From IMG/VR virus record IMGVR_UViG_3300048929_000780, positions 1 to 43,594 of that record: 43,594 bases of DNA; one strand, written 5' to 3'. Origin of the DNA: a virus. The notes under the pieces were generated by a model that saw only the letters and a list, made by a program, of their open reading frames with translations, was not told where the DNA came from and did no database searches. Shown one piece after another: positions 1 to 38,240 of the stretch. Made by a program: the position numbers and the translations under genes. How positions within the stretch are numbered: the first letter of the stretch is position 1; every line of letters starts with the position of its first letter.

Positions 1-1095
1 ATGAAGTACCGCTTCGGGGGCAAGGAGAAGCGCCTGGCGCTCGGCGTGTATCCGGAGGTCACGCTCGCACTGGCACGCAACCGCCGGGAAGACGCACGCC
101 GTCTGCTCGCGCAAGGTACTGACCCAAGCCAGCAGAAGAAGGACGCCGCCGCGGCGAAGGCCGGGCTGGACGCGCTGACGTTCGAATCAATCGGACGGGA
201 GTGGATGAAGGGCCGGCTTTGGGCGCCGTCGTACCGCATCAAGGTCGAAGCGTGGATGGAGAACGACGTGTTCCCATGGATTGGCTCCCGGCAGGCTGCC
301 GAACTTGAGGCGCCGGATTTCCTGTCGATCGCGCGACGCATGGAGCGGCGCGGCGCCATCGAGTCCGGCCATCGGGTGATACAGAACTGCGGGCAGATCA
401 TGCGCTATGCCATTGCCTCGGGCCTGGCCAAGCGCAACCCGGTCGCCGACCTACGCGGTGCGCTGCAGCCAAAGCCGAAGCGCCACTACGCAGCCTTGGC
501 CGAGCCGAAGGAGCTGGCACCGCTGTTGCGCGCTATCCACGCCTATCAGGGCAGGCCAGTCACGCGCTGGGCGCTCGCCCTCGCCCCGCTGGTGTTCGTG
601 AGGCCGGGAGAGCTGCGCCAGGCCGAGTGGACCGAATTCGACTTGGACGCTGGCGTGTGGCTCATCCCAGCCGACAGGATGAAGATGCGCGCCGAGCACC
701 TGGTGCCGTTGTCGCGGCAGGCCCTAGACATCCTAAGGGAGATCCACCCGCTGACCAACCGAGGCAGGTACGTGTTCTCGGGCCGCAACAGCGTGCAGCG
801 GCCGTTGAGCGAAAACACGGTGAACACCGCGCTGCGGCGAATGGGTTTCGAAAGCGATCAGATGACGGGCCACGGATTCCGCGCGACAGCCCGAACAATC
901 CTTGATGAGGTGCTAGGCTTTCGTCCCGACATCATCGAGCATCAGCTGGCCCATGCTGTCCGCGACCCGAATGGTAGAGCCTACAACCGGACCACCCATC
1001 TCACCGAGCGCTTCCGGATGATGCAGGCGTGGGGCGACTATTTGGAAGCCTTGAGGTCAGGCCTCCAACCACGGTGCACAGCAGCCGCACCTTGA
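1..1095 (+). CDS. int: P4-type tyrosine recombinase (integrase), N-terminus probably outside window
   Basis: Site-specific recombinase that joins an element to a tRNA-type attachment site. The C-terminal catalytic domain is complete: the first Arg is in VRPGELRQAEW (about residue 201), the HxxR box is HGFR (291-294), the next His is in QLAH (318), and the Tyr nucleophile is in AYNR (328). Before it lie the SAM-like core-binding domain (about 60-150) and the tail of the DUF4102 arm-binding domain (MKYRFGGKEKRLALGVYPEV). Family members usually carry about 40 more residues ahead of this point, so the ATG at base 1 is likely an internal Met and the real start lies upstream of the window. The two cargo genes follow in the same direction. 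Whether it serves the small tRNA-Phe island or the whole prophage cannot be settled here, because the left att is not visible. Confidence 0.93.
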   Translation: MKYRFGGKEKRLALGVYPEVTLALARNRREDARRLLAQGTDPSQQKKDAAAAKAGLDALTFESIGREWMKGRLWAPSYRIKVEAWMENDVFPWIGSRQAAELEAPDFLSIARRMERRGAIESGHRVIQNCGQIMRYAIASGLAKRNPVADLRGALQPKPKRHYAALAEPKELAPLLRAIHAYQGRPVTRWALALAPLVFVRPGELRQAEWTEFDLDAGVWLIPADRMKMRAEHLVPLSRQALDILREIHPLTNRGRYVFSGRNSVQRPLSENTVNTALRRMGFESDQMTGHGFRATARTILDEVLGFRPDIIEHQLAHAVRDPNGRAYNRTTHLTERFRMMQAWGDYLEALRSGLQPRCTAAAP

Positions 1096-1237: not shown

Positions 1238-2260
1238 ATGATCACGATCTCCCATGTAGACAAAGATCTTGTCATCGACAGCTGGGTTCTTAGTGGACAC
1301 TGCTCGTATGCTCACGCACTTGAGAAGCTTCACCCGCTAATCGGACGCTTCGAAGCTCAAAGGAAGATACAGAGCCAAACATTCTATGAGCGATTGCGCA
1401 GGGACATAATTCAGGGCTGCATAATGCCCCCAATCACTGTCGCAATAGTCGCCGACGATCCAAACTTCGCTGAACACGGATTCGATTTTCAGAGATACAT
1501 CAACAGCCACCTAGACAACGGCTACATTCTCGATGGTATGCAGCGGCTACACAACCTGTCGATAGTCAGCACTGAAGAAGGTTTCGACCCGAATAGAAAA
1601 GTCTACCTCTCCGTAGTCATTGCCGCAAAGAAGGACATGCTCCTGTACCGCATGATCACTCTGAACAATGGCCAAAAGCCAATGAGTCCGCGCCACCAGA
1701 TTGAAGTACTAACTCAGGAATTATTTGACTTCGAAGATCTTGAGATGGAAGTTCAAACCGAGAAGGAGCGGTCTGAGCGAATCGTCCGAGGCGCCTTCAA
1801 TCTTGCGGATATATCAAAAGGCTATCTCGCATTCCTCACTGACAATCTGCATAACGATAACAATAGAATTATTGCAGAGAAGATGGACGAGCTGATAATC
1901 TCAAAAATAATGCAAGCAGGCCCTGCGCAAGGAATACAGTTCCAGGAAATACTCGCCATGATCGATGCTTTCGCGGAGGATCAGACTGCGAAGTCATGGC
2001 TGAAGACCCAAAACAATCTAATCGGCTTCTGCGTCGGCGTAAAAACGAGTCACAATCTACTTGTCGAGAAGACACCTAGGGAATTTGGTGAGCTTTGCGG
2101 CCGTTTCGACGAGGCATTCAAAGCCATCAACGCAGCCAAAGTTAACCTTGGCAAGTATCGCAGAGAGCTTTCCTTCAAGTACATTAGATCGCTCGACGAG
2201 CTGCAAAACTACGAAGTAAACGACCTGATCGACTGGTGCAATGACGAGACGGCAACCTAA
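1238..2260 (+). CDS. DGQ(H)R/DUF262-like (ParB/Srx superfamily) protein, candidate defence component
   Basis: 340 aa. The centre of the N-terminal half reads YILDGMQRLHNL (D99-G100-M101-Q102-R103), a variant of the DGQHR/DGQQR signature of DndB-like and DUF262 (GmrS-like) proteins. It is followed about 40 residues on by a conserved-looking ITLNNGQKPMS segment (about 140-150), as in that superfamily. The rest is helical with no recognised motif. Members of these families bind nucleotides or DNA and often sit in phage-defence or DNA-modification loci. The start is supported by AAGGA about 9 nt upstream; the leader is AT-rich. The stop overlaps the next start (TAATG), so the two genes are translationally coupled. 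GC is clearly lower than in the phage genes, which suggests separate acquisition. Function not established. Confidence 0.8.
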   Translation: MITISHVDKDLVIDSWVLSGHCSYAHALEKLHPLIGRFEAQRKIQSQTFYERLRRDIIQGCIMPPITVAIVADDPNFAEHGFDFQRYINSHLDNGYILDGMQRLHNLSIVSTEEGFDPNRKVYLSVVIAAKKDMLLYRMITLNNGQKPMSPRHQIEVLTQELFDFEDLEMEVQTEKERSERIVRGAFNLADISKGYLAFLTDNLHNDNNRIIAEKMDELIISKIMQAGPAQGIQFQEILAMIDAFAEDQTAKSWLKTQNNLIGFCVGVKTSHNLLVEKTPREFGELCGRFDEAFKAINAAKVNLGKYRRELSFKYIRSLDELQNYEVNDLIDWCNDETAT

Positions 2261-3162
2261 TGGCCAATATCGTTATCTACAAGGACAGAGATAACTTCCA
2301 GCTCAACGATCTGGACCAGTTCGAAATAACTCACCAGACGCGCCCAGAGGCAATCTGCCTTAGGCTTCTGTGCGGAACTTGCGAAGTTTTCAATGTCGAA
2401 ACCGACGACAATACAACAGTCTCGACTAACTTTCTGGAATCCAGCTCGTCTGAAAACACGTCAATTGACCTATCCTTCCTTAATACTTACCAGGAAGGAA
2501 TAACCGCCCAAGACTATAACGCGCACCTCAAAAGTGCCAGTGATAATAACCGCGGCTTCTACAAGGACTTTCTCAGCGAGATAACCGTCGCAGCCTGTGC
2601 GGCAGAGAGATGCCAGGGAATTTCGTCCTTCCTGCATATCTACCGAGCGTACGAGAGGATTTCGTACGCCTTTCCGCTCATTTATGCATCCAAGAGCCGG
2701 GACTACATCGGGTCATTTAATAATCTCAAGTCGTGGCTTGCTGATACAAAAAACGATGGAAGCGCAGGGGAGCTGGCTTTTTTCAAGAAGTTCATTGATG
2801 CCACTTACGACGACAATGAAAAAAGCGCAACGACAGACTTCTATTTTACTGGGTCGGATGCCGTCAAGATTAGCCAATTCAGGCTAATGAAGAACAACAT
2901 TCTGAATTGGAAGATCGAACAGATCACACCCAGCACCATCGAAAATGAGATCATATCGATCCGATTCGACCAACTCCACACTGTGCTTCTCAATGTTAGA
3001 AATCGGTATTTCCACCAGATGAGTGGCCGAGGCGACAACATAAAGCAGGCCGCCGTGATTGACCCAGACGCCTTCTTCCTGGTGCTTTGTCGACCACTAC
3101 TGACGTATGTCGCAAAGCTTTTCCACGATATTGTGATAGAAGATATGAAATCGCCTGCGTGA
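2260..3162 (+). CDS. Putative HEPN-type ribonuclease, partner of the DGMQR protein
   Basis: 300 aa. Near the C-terminus it has VRNRYFHQM (R247-N248-x3-H252), which fits the catalytic R-N-x3-H motif of HEPN RNases, set in a predominantly helical region (about 100-295). The first ~90 residues look like a separate beta-rich domain. HEPN proteins act as RNA-cutting effectors in many toxin-antitoxin and abortive-infection systems. It overlaps the upstream gene by one base, and the pair sits between an integrase and a tRNA-Phe att fragment, a typical defence-island position. Low GC is shared with its partner. I infer an effector (this gene) plus sensor or regulator (upstream gene); neither role is shown by sequence alone. 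Confidence 0.75.
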   Translation: MANIVIYKDRDNFQLNDLDQFEITHQTRPEAICLRLLCGTCEVFNVETDDNTTVSTNFLESSSSENTSIDLSFLNTYQEGITAQDYNAHLKSASDNNRGFYKDFLSEITVAACAAERCQGISSFLHIYRAYERISYAFPLIYASKSRDYIGSFNNLKSWLADTKNDGSAGELAFFKKFIDATYDDNEKSATTDFYFTGSDAVKISQFRLMKNNILNWKIEQITPSTIENEIISIRFDQLHTVLLNVRNRYFHQMSGRGDNIKQAAVIDPDAFFLVLCRPLLTYVAKLFHDIVIEDMKSPA

Positions 3163-3191: not shown

Positions 3192-3241
3192 GGGGATTGA
3201 AAATCCCCGTGTCGGCGGTTCGATTCCGTCCCCGGCCACCA
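3192..3241 (+). other. tRNA-Phe 3' half: integration attachment site (att)
   Basis: The segment folds as an anticodon arm GGGGA-TTGAAAA-TCCCC (GAA anticodon, Phe), variable loop GTGTC, T-arm with TTCGATT loop, and acceptor 3' strand ending ACCA. The D-arm and 5' acceptor strand are missing, so it is not a working tRNA. This is the usual footprint of a tyrosine integrase that recombines inside a tRNA 3' half. It marks a boundary between the integrase/cargo block to the left and what follows to the right. Confidence 0.85.
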
Positions 3242-5239: not shown

Positions 5240-5311
5240 GGGTGGCCGTAAGGACTAGGTCTCGCAACTATGGCCTGCGGCCGGCAGAACTGTCCAACTG
5301 GGCTGCCGAGA

Positions 5312-5761: not shown

Positions 5762-6427
5762 ATGTGCGGCCGATTCGTCCAGACCCCGATCCGAAACGCT
5801 GACACCCTGGGCTTCCCGCAGCTGGTCGGCGACCTGATGTCGATCCCCGAAAGCTACAACCTGGCGCCGGCGCAGCGCGCCTCGGTGATCCTCGATCGCG
5901 GCACCGGCCTGCAGGTCACCCGCCTTTCGTGGGGCCTGCTCCCCTTCTGGGCCAAGGCCAAGAAGCTGCAGGGCTCCACGATCAATGCCCGCATCGAGAC
6001 GGTGGCCACCAAGCCTGCCTTCCGGTCCGCGTTCAAGAAGCGGCGCTGCCTGATCCCCATGGCCGGCTACTATGAGTGGTCGGTCAACGCCGAGGACGGC
6101 AAGAAGGATCCATGGTTCATCCACGCGACCGGGCCGCTGCTGGCCGCCGGCCTCTGGGAAGACACCAGTCCCCTGCTCGACCCAGACAATCTGGGCACCT
6201 TCACCGTGATCACCGGTGACAGCAGTGGCGTGTCTGCCGATATCCACGACCGGATGCCGGTTTGGCTGACGGCTGGCCAGGCCGATGAGTGGCTGGCGGC
6301 CGAGCCCGACGAAGCGATGGCAATGCTGCTGGCCAGCGAGCCGCCGGCAATGGAGGCCTATCGCGTCAGTCGCGCGGTGAACACGCCGCGGAACAACCAG
6401 CCCGCCCTGCTCGACCAAGTGGCGTGA
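5762..6427 (+). CDS. SRAP-domain (SOS response-associated peptidase, YedK/HMCES-like) protein
   Basis: 221 aa, full length for the family. SRAP proteins form a covalent thiazolidine bond between Cys2 and abasic sites in single-stranded DNA. The key residues are all present: Cys2 in MCGRF, Asn75 in NARIET, Glu105 in GYYEW and His162 in DIHDRMPV. The gene is on the plus strand against the surrounding late operon, with its own leader. Its TGA is directly followed by the reverse stop of the next gene (TGATCA). Probably an accessory DNA-repair or protection gene with its own promoter; SOS control is typical of relatives, but I see no clear LexA site. Confidence 0.93.
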   Translation: MCGRFVQTPIRNADTLGFPQLVGDLMSIPESYNLAPAQRASVILDRGTGLQVTRLSWGLLPFWAKAKKLQGSTINARIETVATKPAFRSAFKKRRCLIPMAGYYEWSVNAEDGKKDPWFIHATGPLLAAGLWEDTSPLLDPDNLGTFTVITGDSSGVSADIHDRMPVWLTAGQADEWLAAEPDEAMAMLLASEPPAMEAYRVSRAVNTPRNNQPALLDQVA

Positions 6428-35509: not shown

Positions 35510-36001
35510 TCAGGCGGCGTGGACGCCGAGGTCGATACGGTCGGCGTCCGGATCGTCCGGCGCCGACGCCGCCAGCGACGGCTGCTCCTGCACTCCGAGC
35601 AGCTGCAGCACCTGCGGCAAGGCCGGGACGCTCAGCTCTTCCGGCCACGCCTCAACCTCACCGGTTGGCAGCCGCAGCACTTTGGCCAGATGCGCGTCGG
35701 TCTTGAGGCCCAGCTTCGCCCGCAGCGCGCGCTTGCTCATTCGCGTATCGACGAGGGTCCGAACGGCCTGTCGAACGGTGAGATTTGGTGCATCAGAGTC
35801 AGGCCAAATGTCCGGGCGCAAATCGTTAAGCGAGACAGCTGCGCCACTTTCGACGTGGAGCAACCTCACCAAGCCGCCGTCGAATCGCTGCCCCTTGCTC
35901 AGCGCCTTACGCAGATAACCGATGGAAGTGCCGGCTCGTTTGGCGAATGCAGCCTGTTCGGCCGGAACCAGAGTGCTGAGGTAGGTGCGAAGAGTGTCCA
36001 T
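35510..36001 (-). CDS. Cro-like regulator (YdaS-type helix-turn-helix)
   Basis: 163 aa. The N-terminal HTH (LVPAEQAAFAKRAGTSIGYL, RKALSKGQRF) is of the YdaS/Cro type; the C-terminus is Pro/Asp-rich. Divergent from C1 across the operator region. Its promoter (TTGACT, 16 bp, TAATTT at 36008-36035) puts the transcription start almost at the ATG, so the mRNA may be leaderless. Confidence 0.8.
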   Translation of the reverse strand: MDTLRTYLSTLVPAEQAAFAKRAGTSIGYLRKALSKGQRFDGGLVRLLHVESGAAVSLNDLRPDIWPDSDAPNLTVRQAVRTLVDTRMSKRALRAKLGLKTDAHLAKVLRLPTGEVEAWPEELSVPALPQVLQLLGVQEQPSLAASAPDDPDADRIDLGVHAA

Positions 36002-36007
36002 ACCGGT

Positions 36008-36063
36008 AAATTACCATATGGTAAAGCTCAGTCAATACCATTTGGTACATTACCCTCTGGTAT
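36008..36063. promoter_or_regulatory. Switch region: three repressor operators and the Cro promoter
   Basis: Dyad sites TTACCATATGGTAA (36011-36024), ATACCATTTGGTAC (36035-36048) and TTACCCTCTGGTAT (36050-36063) share the half-site TACC...GGTA. On the minus strand TTGACT (36030-36035) and TAATTT (36008-36013), 16 bp apart, form a promoter for Cro; one operator fills its spacer and another abuts its -35. A plus-strand promoter for C1 should lie here but is not clear. Confidence 0.85.
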
Positions 36064-36077
36064 CGGACACTCGCCGG

Positions 36078-36782
36078 ATGACTAAGGCCGACACTCCGAT
36101 CGTTGCGCTTCGCCGGGCCAAACTGCGCAAGTGGATTGAAGATCACCACGCAGGCATCCAGGCGCAGTTCGTGACGAACACCGGGATCAACCAGGGTGAG
36201 CTATCAGGGCTACTTGGTAAGAAGTCGTTTGGCGAGAAGCGCGCCGCCTCACTAGAGGCTGCAGCTGGTATGCCTGCCGGCTACCTGAGCCAAGAAGGAC
36301 TTATAGACGACCTGATCGATATCAGCCGCGTCGCACCGGTCTTAGAGACTGAGACGCGTCCGGGCTATGTTCGCTTCGACGTTTTCGAAGGGGGCGCAGG
36401 GATGGGTGCAGGATTGGTGAACCAGGACTACCCCGAGGTGGTGCAGACGATCGAGGTGGCCGAGTGGGAGGTTCGCCGGAAGCTGGGATACCTGCCAAAG
36501 CCCGGCCGGATTCAACTGATCACCGGTCGTGGGCCTTCGATGAAGCCCAAGCTCGAGGACGGGGACATCATCTGGATCGACACGAGCTGCAACTACTTCG
36601 ATGGAGACGACTACTACCTGATCAACATAGGTGGCGAGACGCAGATCAAGATGCTGCAGAAGCGCGGAGACGGCATGTACGTGGTTAGCATCAATCCCGA
36701 CTTCCCCACGTACCGATCCGACGAAGGTGAAGTCAGCATCCTCGGGAAGGCCCTGATACACGCCGGACTCCGGCGCTTCTGA
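36078..36782 (+). CDS. C1-type prophage repressor (S24/LexA-like)
   Basis: 234 aa from ATG 36078. An N-terminal HTH (about 10-65: FVTNTGINQGELSGLLGKKS) and a C-terminal S24 peptidase-like domain with catalytic Ser154 (GRGPSMKPKL) and Lys191 (QIKMLQKR). Possible cleavage sites are Ala-Gly at 107-108 or 111-112. RecA would trigger self-cleavage and induction. The upstream operators and the second set at 37896 are its likely targets. No ribosome site is seen, so translation may be leaderless. Confidence 0.92.
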   Translation: MTKADTPIVALRRAKLRKWIEDHHAGIQAQFVTNTGINQGELSGLLGKKSFGEKRAASLEAAAGMPAGYLSQEGLIDDLIDISRVAPVLETETRPGYVRFDVFEGGAGMGAGLVNQDYPEVVQTIEVAEWEVRRKLGYLPKPGRIQLITGRGPSMKPKLEDGDIIWIDTSCNYFDGDDYYLINIGGETQIKMLQKRGDGMYVVSINPDFPTYRSDEGEVSILGKALIHAGLRRF

Positions 36783-36810
36783 CGGACCCGCTCGAACTTG
36801 GGCCAGGCAT

Positions 36811-36837
36811 AAAAAAGCCCCGCCGAAGCGGGGCTTT
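36811..36837. terminator. Bidirectional terminator between C1 and the 60-aa gene
   Basis: GCCCCGC / GCGGGGC stem with a 4-5 nt loop. T run of six on the minus strand, shorter on the plus strand; separates the convergent genes. Confidence 0.8.
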
Positions 36838-36859
36838 CAGAGACGACACGGCGCGCGGA

Positions 36860-37042
36860 TCACGCAGCTCGCTTAGCCTCAACGTATTCAGAAGCTACAG
36901 ACGAGAACCAAGAGATCCCCTTTGCGTCGTCACCCATCTGGGATAGGCGGGCCTCAAACGCGCCAGCAAGGCTTTCAGTCAACTCGTCCTTAATGGCGAG
37001 AAAGCCCGCGTGGTCCATATGGACACAGCCGAACTTAGCCAT
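36860..37042 (-). CDS. Small accessory protein in the immunity region
   Basis: 60 aa, preceded by AGAGGAAT and a strong promoter at 37120-37148. Helical (LAIKDELTESLAGAFEARL). No recognised domain. Convergent with C1, where lambdoid phages keep lysogenically expressed genes, so it may act in the lysogen. Confidence 0.65.
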   Translation of the reverse strand: MAKFGCVHMDHAGFLAIKDELTESLAGAFEARLSQMGDDAKGISWFSSVASEYVEAKRAA

Positions 37043-37116
37043 GGCAATTCCTCTCTATGTAAATGTGAACTTGGGCGGAGGCCCGATAAATCCTGGGCAG
37101 GATGCCTCCGGCGGTC

Positions 37117-37148
37117 CTTAGGGTAACCTAAGTGAAAATGCGTGTCAA
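37117..37148 (-). promoter_or_regulatory. Promoter with dyad operator for the 60-aa gene
   Basis: On the minus strand TTGACA (37143-37148), 17 bp, TACCCT (37120-37125). A perfect 6-4-6 dyad CTTAGGTTACCCTAAG (37117-37132) covers the -10. Different from the C1 operators, so another regulator should act here. Confidence 0.7.
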
Positions 37149-37168
37149 CGGACAAGCCTATTCAGGTG

Positions 37169-37750
37169 TCAGCTTGCTGTTCCAACCAGCTGAAGATGGG
37201 TGCCGTCAGCGCCAGGCTTCTTAGACACCATGAGCCAGTTGCCGTGGCTTTTAACATCATAGTGTTCAGAGTACTTATCTACGCTGAAGATGGCAGTGGC
37301 CACCGCAGTCATAAATTGCGCATCCAGCGGGAAAGCAGTGTGAATTTTTAGTTGCCGCGATGGGAAGACTCCGTACGTGAGGCTCAGACAGCCAACAATC
37401 GCTGTGGCTGCAATCCAAGCCAGCGCCGCATAGTTCGGCTCTGAGTCGGCCAAGTTCAGATCCGGCTGAACGTAAACGTCCAACATGCGGATTTCACTTT
37501 TTGCCTTTGCATGAGAGACGACCAGCAAGGCGGATGCGTACTCAACGCCCTCTTCTACTACCGCACACAGGCAACCACCACCGTCACCCATGTTCACATC
37601 ACCGTGCACAGTTCGCTCGGTGTATTCGAGACCAGCGGTGTAATACGTGGCGCTGACGTTCTCTTGATTGCTATTGATCTGCGAAAGCCACGCGCCCTTC
37701 GTCACGTCGAAAAGAGCTGGCTGTACATGGTCGACAAACTTGTACTTCAT
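37169..37750 (-). CDS. Accessory protein with central hydrophobic segment, unknown
   Basis: 193 aa; a G-rich run (GGGGGGG) lies just before the ATG and may serve as ribosome site. A soluble N-terminal part with DGGGCLCAVVEEG, a hydrophobic span near 105-120 (AALAWIAATAIVGCL) and a polar C-terminal part ending QLVGTAS. GC is lower than in the structural genes. Located between C1 and the rightward early promoter, opposite in direction, a common site for phage-exclusion genes. No family recognised. Confidence 0.6.
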   Translation of the reverse strand: MKYKFVDHVQPALFDVTKGAWLSQINSNQENVSATYYTAGLEYTERTVHGDVNMGDGGGCLCAVVEEGVEYASALLVVSHAKAKSEIRMLDVYVQPDLNLADSEPNYAALAWIAATAIVGCLSLTYGVFPSRQLKIHTAFPLDAQFMTAVATAIFSVDKYSEHYDVKSHGNWLMVSKKPGADGTHLQLVGTAS

Positions 37751-37895
37751 GAATCCCCCCCCTGGAAGCAGCGCCTTCCTGGCGCGCGTAAAGAATACAA
37801 GGCCAACGCCTTTCCCGATGTAGGGATTTTCCTACCCCTCGCCCCAGGGGTTAAATGAACGAAATTGATATCCGTTCAGCTATGGCGCGGGTGGT

Positions 37896-37936
37896 TTACC
37901 TTTTGGTATTGACACAACTTTACCATTTGGTAATCT
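37896..37936 (+). promoter_or_regulatory. Second repressor-controlled promoter (PL-like) with two operators
   Basis: Dyads TTACCTTTTGGTAT (37896-37909) and TTACCATTTGGTAA (37920-37933) match the C1-region operators. TTGACA (37909-37914), 16 bp, TAATCT (37931-37936) is the same layout as the Cro promoter. It drives the rightward early operon from 37989. Confidence 0.9.
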
Positions 37937-37988
37937 CACTTCCGTCGCCCCAGTAACAGCCCATCCGGGCCGGGGCACGGAGACTTCC

Positions 37989-38240
37989 ATGGCCTGCTTC
38001 ATCGTCAGCGCGCGCGCCCACCCAGTCGTGGAAGCCCGCCCCAGTACCGCCACCGTCGTCATCAAAGCCGGTGACGTCATCGTCAGCCTCTCCCCCGATG
38101 AGGCCACCCAGCTCTGCAAAGACCTCGCCCACGCCGCGATGGCGCTGAGCCGCACCGCCCGCGCGCGCCGCGGCATGGTGCCCGCCGGTGGCATCGAGAC
38201 TGCCCGTGGCCACGCCGGCCTGGCTGAGGTGGCGGCGTGA
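37989..38240 (+). CDS. Early operon protein 1, unknown
   Basis: 83 aa, first gene after the rightward promoter. A beta-rich start (TATVVIKAGDVIVSLS), then a helical half and a basic patch. The next gene starts in its stop (GTGA). Function unknown. Confidence 0.7.
   Translation: MACFIVSARAHPVVEARPSTATVVIKAGDVIVSLSPDEATQLCKDLAHAAMALSRTARARRGMVPAGGIETARGHAGLAEVAA

Follow-up and report, generated by a model that had tools for sequence, protein, structure and literature searches.

The gene pair at positions 1,238 to 3,162 of the window, that is, of the whole 43,594-nucleotide stretch of viral DNA analysed (IMG/VR record IMGVR_UViG_3300048929_000780), is likely to be prophage-borne cargo encoding a compact, deep-branching variant of the Dazbog anti-phage system, in which a sensor, DzbA, would release a HEPN-type RNase, DzbB. 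Judging from sequence homology, the first gene is the dzbA of the published system. Dazbog (Millman et al. 2022, as cited in PMC10952713) consists of DzbA and DzbB, which are represented in PADLOC by PDLC03835/PDLC03836. An earlier note on this DNA knew of no named system with this pairing and proposed a possible new defence system, counting correspondence with a system that already has a name among the results that would speak against it. We found such a match and reject the reading as a new named system, because the first protein (P0001) matches the PADLOC DzbA model with E=2.5e-49, as do 69 of the 69 scanned members of its clade; its partner (P0002) shares the C-terminal motif of DzbB. The system is therefore known, and the compact branch is a new variant of it.

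Table 1 Features of the gene pair and its surroundings in the window.
Feature	Position	Strand	Description
P4-type tyrosine integrase, upstream neighbour of the pair	1..1095	+	N-terminus lost at window edge
dzbA-like ORF (P0001)	1238..2260	+	340 aa; ParB/DUF262-type, compact Dazbog clade
D99-G-M-Q-R103 motif of DzbA-like protein	1532..1546	+	residues 99-103
dzbB-like ORF (P0002)	2260..3162	+	300 aa; putative HEPN-type RNase effector
R247-N-R-Y-F-H252 motif of DzbB-like protein	2998..3015	+	end of helix 236-251
tRNA-Phe 3' half, then terminator-like hairpin	3192..3241	+	matches annotated tRNA-Phe genes; single-copy

Both open reading frames were recovered with the boundaries given in Table 1, as was their translational coupling. 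The genes overlap by one nucleotide within TAATG, the TAA of P0001 occupying 2258-2260 and the ATG of P0002 beginning at 2260. The DGMQR motif described for the first protein is present, as is the R-N-x3-H motif described for the second (R247-N248-R-Y-F-H252). The GC content of the pair is also lower, as the earlier note had observed, with 0.47-0.49 vs 0.62-0.69 for most of the phage.

To place the first protein, we compared the profile of its clade with that of canonical DzbA, where "canonical" denotes pairs matching both PADLOC models, a set to which the experimentally tested Dazbog prototype does not itself belong. The two profiles align over nearly their full length (hhalign, probability 100, E=1.1e-50). 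D99, G100, Q102 and R103 are invariant across the 69 DzbA sequences of the clade. The match of P0001 to the Pfam family GmrSD_N (DUF262) stays below the cut-off with E=0.03, whereas relatives reach up to 2.6e-7. For the AlphaFold2 model of P0001 (pLDDT 84.7), the top 11 Foldseek matches consist of SspE, PadC (ParB-like), ParB, Noc, BrxU and an RK2 repressor complex, all of them weak (E 0.09 to 0.91). No homologues of P0001 were found in the phage records searched, and a sequence search of the PDB with the DzbA and DzbB profiles returned nothing relevant.

Next to canonical Dazbog, the pair shows the same dzbA-dzbB order, tight coupling, a DUF262-type first gene with DGxQR, and a second gene with YxxxE and a C-terminal R-polar-x3-H. 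It differs in size, DzbA of the window clade having about 340 residues compared with 393 in the PADLOC profile and DzbB about 300 compared with 341, although DzbB members in the set reach about 425 residues. Moreover, the compact branch forms a deep, separate clade whose DzbB mostly escapes the PADLOC model. Another named system is PD-T4-2 (Vassallo et al. 2022, PMC9519451), a defence of E. coli against T4 for which PMC10952713 gives both DUF262 and HEPN; neither window protein gave a PADLOC match so named. GmrSD, BrxU and SspE share the DUF262 (ParB/Srx-like) NTPase domain with DGQQR, and the latter two also turned up as weak fold matches to DzbA, but all three carry a DUF1524 HNH nuclease that was not found in the window pair. 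Pairings of ParB and HEPN genes in general were already noted in 2013 (PMC3710099), whose Table 1 places the HEPN families MAE_28990 and RiboL-PSP in operons with ParB, and MAE_28990 also with methylase genes. Like our pair, they place a HEPN-motif gene beside one of the ParB type, in some cases together with a methylase, but the HEPN families are different.

We then asked whether the two genes are conserved together. One search through 84,980 species genomes and a second through viral contigs together yielded 112 loci, and 107 complete pairs were obtained from these loci, four plasmids and the closely related prophage L002. The intergenic spacing lies between -11 and +14 nucleotides in 105 of the 107 pairs, the remaining two being coupled less tightly. 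An R-polar-x3-H motif is located within 130 residues of the C-terminus in 106 of the 107 pairs, compared with an expectation of 4.2 for shuffled tails. The sole exception (L072, 5168-6067) reads KNRYFH, with lysine in place of the motif arginine; this natural DzbB variant may have lost or changed its effector function. A unit of a DGQxR/DUF262-like and a HEPN-like protein, as the earlier note had conceived it, is thus well supported as a conserved pair. At one locus (L061, 3445-4500) an intact compact-clade DzbA has no recognisable adjoining DzbB although the contig runs on, and three others (L054, L084 and L092) appear frameshifted or decayed.

Compact members occur in Pseudomonadota, Bacteroidota, Bacillota, Cyanobacteriota, Thermodesulfobacteriota and Verrucomicrobiota. 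In a DzbA tree built with a quick method, in which long branches are flagged, a stem of 3.28 changes per column (SH-aLRT 99) separates the compact clade from canonical Dazbog. The window sequence clusters with those of L002, Pseudomonas, Psychromonas and a Desulfuromonadaceae MAG, and members with a longer DzbB from Lactiplantibacillus and Enterococcus sit within the compact DzbA clade. The pair is carried on prophages and plasmids, with integrase neighbours at some loci.

A motif-based count made with no background control placed C5 methyltransferases close to about 11 of 100 pairs, in many cases directly adjoining them. Examples are L004, L022, L028, L039, L052, L057, L077, L079 and L086, and L004 additionally carries an MvaI/BcnI-type restriction enzyme. 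These neighbours may be relevant to the reported triggering of Dazbog by methylation. As only about one in nine loci has such a gene nearby, we discarded the methyltransferase as a third component; the window itself showed none when searched for the motifs. We regard the association as a lead, not a requirement.

The second protein is more divergent. P0002 has no match in Pfam, NCBIfam or PADLOC, the DzbB model included, and that model is matched by five of the 73 compact DzbB members, with a best E-value of 2.9e-5. The compact and canonical DzbB profiles nevertheless align (hhalign, E=7.5e-5, probability 62), and the alignment pairs YRxxE with YQxxE and RNRYFH with RNFIFH. YxxxE and R-polar-x3-H are common to both branches. 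E107, Y128, E132, P139 and H252 do not vary among the 73 compact sequences, and R247 and N248 each occur in at least 90% of them, while the only four invariant columns of canonical DzbB are Y235, E239, R328 and H333. Plasmids of Moritella, Pseudomonas and Pantoea bear pairs matching both the DzbA and the DzbB models, in which RCSIAH, RNFIFH and RNSYVH lie near the end of the second protein.

Is DzbB a HEPN protein? The AlphaFold2 model of P0002 (pLDDT 89.4, pTM 0.90) contains helices at residues 98-116 and 120-145, an insert at 149-235, and helices at 236-251, ending at R247-H252, and at 269-297. Four of the helices form a core whose third helix ends with the motif, and E132 is located on helix 120-145. 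This predicted order of helices fits the HEPN layout described in PMC3710099, in which helix 2 bears an acidic residue that is conserved. Single members of the DzbB family show weak HEPN matches in PADLOC and Pfam, and six of the nine weak non-Dazbog PADLOC matches of compact members are to HEPN RNases (Csx1/Csm6, Cas13-ApeA, Csx1 and Cas13a). A Foldseek search of the model against PDB and BFVD gave no significant match; HEPN proteins in its list are LsoA (RNase LS) at rank 4 (E=3.1), Csm6 at rank 14 and one further protein far down. Likewise, the compact DzbB profile did not reach significance against the fetched RiboL-PSP and ApeA HEPN families (P=0.39 and 0.2), while canonical DzbB gave P=0.021 against RiboL-PSP. 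The best local alignment in both the RiboL-PSP and the ApeA comparisons places the motif in register. MAE_28990 was not among the Pfam matches of the DzbB sets, and profile comparison with the retrieved RiboL-PSP/MAE_28990 proteins did not reach significance. The HEPN motif proposed for P0002 is thus conserved and the assignment plausible, but fold search and profile comparison did not lend it significance. On balance, DzbB is probably a HEPN protein. The literature searched, from which the original Dazbog papers were absent, contained no statement to this effect, and we therefore claim no priority for it.

The setting of the pair is that of a prophage. The integrase beside it, called P4-type before, bears the expected domains (Pfam Phage_int_M 1.6e-27, Phage_integrase 1.3e-15, Arm-DNA-bind_3 6.4e-14). 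The remaining window is that of an ordinary temperate tailed phage, with terminase, head-tail adaptor, tail protein, a CI-like repressor and, at the right end, an excisionase-type regulator. A second dip in GC content (0.54-0.58) lies at 36000-38000, around the CI-like repressor and a minus-strand ORF (37169-37750), and an SRAP-type gene (SOS-response-associated peptidase) at 5762-6427 resembles one in Stenotrophomonas phage Smp131. L002, the sister prophage, encodes proteins 87% (DzbA) and 78% (DzbB) identical to those of the window, in the same order of integrase, dzbA, dzbB and tRNA-Phe. The earlier note had taken the tRNA-Phe sequence for the attachment site. The 3' half of a tRNA-Phe is real, although ARAGORN did not find a whole tRNA at this piece, and L002 has its counterpart downstream of dzbB at 5250-5299. 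However, the fragment is single-copy in both sister prophages and the integrase of L002 directly adjoins an intact tmRNA gene; tRNA-Phe is therefore probably not the attachment site of this integrase. The prophage's own left end lies outside the window, so this reading is drawn from L002, and the piece is probably a relic rather than a working attachment site. It could possibly stem from an older attachment site or from a swap of the integrase together with its cargo.

How might the pair act? According to reviews, Dazbog defence requires the DUF262 gene and has phage methylases as a trigger, while its molecular mechanism has been called unclear (PMC10952713, PMC12409349); in SspE and BrxU, DUF262 domains act as NTPases responsive to modified DNA (PMC10952713). 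Our analysis shows the conservation of the pair, the homology of its DzbA to Dazbog, the conserved motifs and the predicted fold of each protein. We propose the following scheme. DzbA, with its ParB/DUF262 fold, would bind a nucleotide through a pocket formed around DG(M/I/L)QR and would sense phage DNA, probably its modification or the product of a phage methylase. Sensing would act through the nucleotide site to free DzbB. RNA would then be cut by the HEPN-type domain at the C-terminus of DzbB (R247-N-x3-H252; E132 lies one helix earlier), so that the infected cell would stop growing or producing phage and the lysogen population would be protected. Here, the sensing trigger is inferred from the literature, whereas gating by the nucleotide and the RNase activity are purely inferred.

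An addiction module of the toxin-antitoxin kind, with DzbB as toxic RNase and DzbA as its neutraliser and autoregulator, would keep the prophage in place with no sensing of phage DNA. Such a module would agree with the tight coupling of the two genes, the HEPN-like motif of the second, their presence on prophages and plasmids, the integrases beside some loci, and the frequency of HEPN domains in toxin-antitoxin systems (PMC3710099). Yet DzbA is a large protein whose sequence is strongly conserved between phyla, with 33 invariant columns among 69 members, and its mean column identity of 48% is well above the 28% of DzbB; the homologous Dazbog is reported as a methylase-triggered phage defence. 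We consider such a module unlikely. Quite improbable in our view is restriction resembling type IV, with DzbA as the reader of modified DNA and DzbB, or DzbA itself, as the nuclease that cuts phage DNA instead of RNA. The distant relationship of DzbA to GmrSD_N, the presence of SspE and BrxU among its weak fold neighbours and the methylase trigger given in reviews point this way; against it, Pfam scans of the window proteins and their relatives found no DUF1524/HNH domain in either protein of the pair, and the most conserved residues of DzbB suit a HEPN site, not a metal-dependent nuclease. Finally, that the pair is an unrelated new two-gene system sharing merely a DUF262-like first gene with Dazbog is very improbable, since, despite the undetected P0002, the modest hhalign probability for DzbB and the long stem between the clades, the near full-length DzbA alignment, the gene order, coupling and both DzbB motifs common to the two branches, and the few compact members matching the DzbB model all tie it to Dazbog.

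With the pair read as a compact Dazbog, its implications reach beyond this prophage. The compact branch is widespread and usually overlooked. Because the DzbA model matches all 69 scanned members of the clade but the DzbB model only 5 of 73, system callers that need both models would probably miss this large branch. We lean slightly towards a wider view, namely that all Dazbog is a HEPN-effector system, in which a ParB/DUF262 NTPase would sense the modification of phage DNA and gate an RNase toxin, and that the compact clade, present in at least six phyla, is its second major type, with an effector usually missed by PADLOC. The near-universal R-polar-x3-H in compact and canonical DzbB gives a direct and cheap hypothesis, a DUF262 sensor gating an RNase effector, and the HEPN-type appearance of the second protein suggests a possible mode of action for Dazbog.
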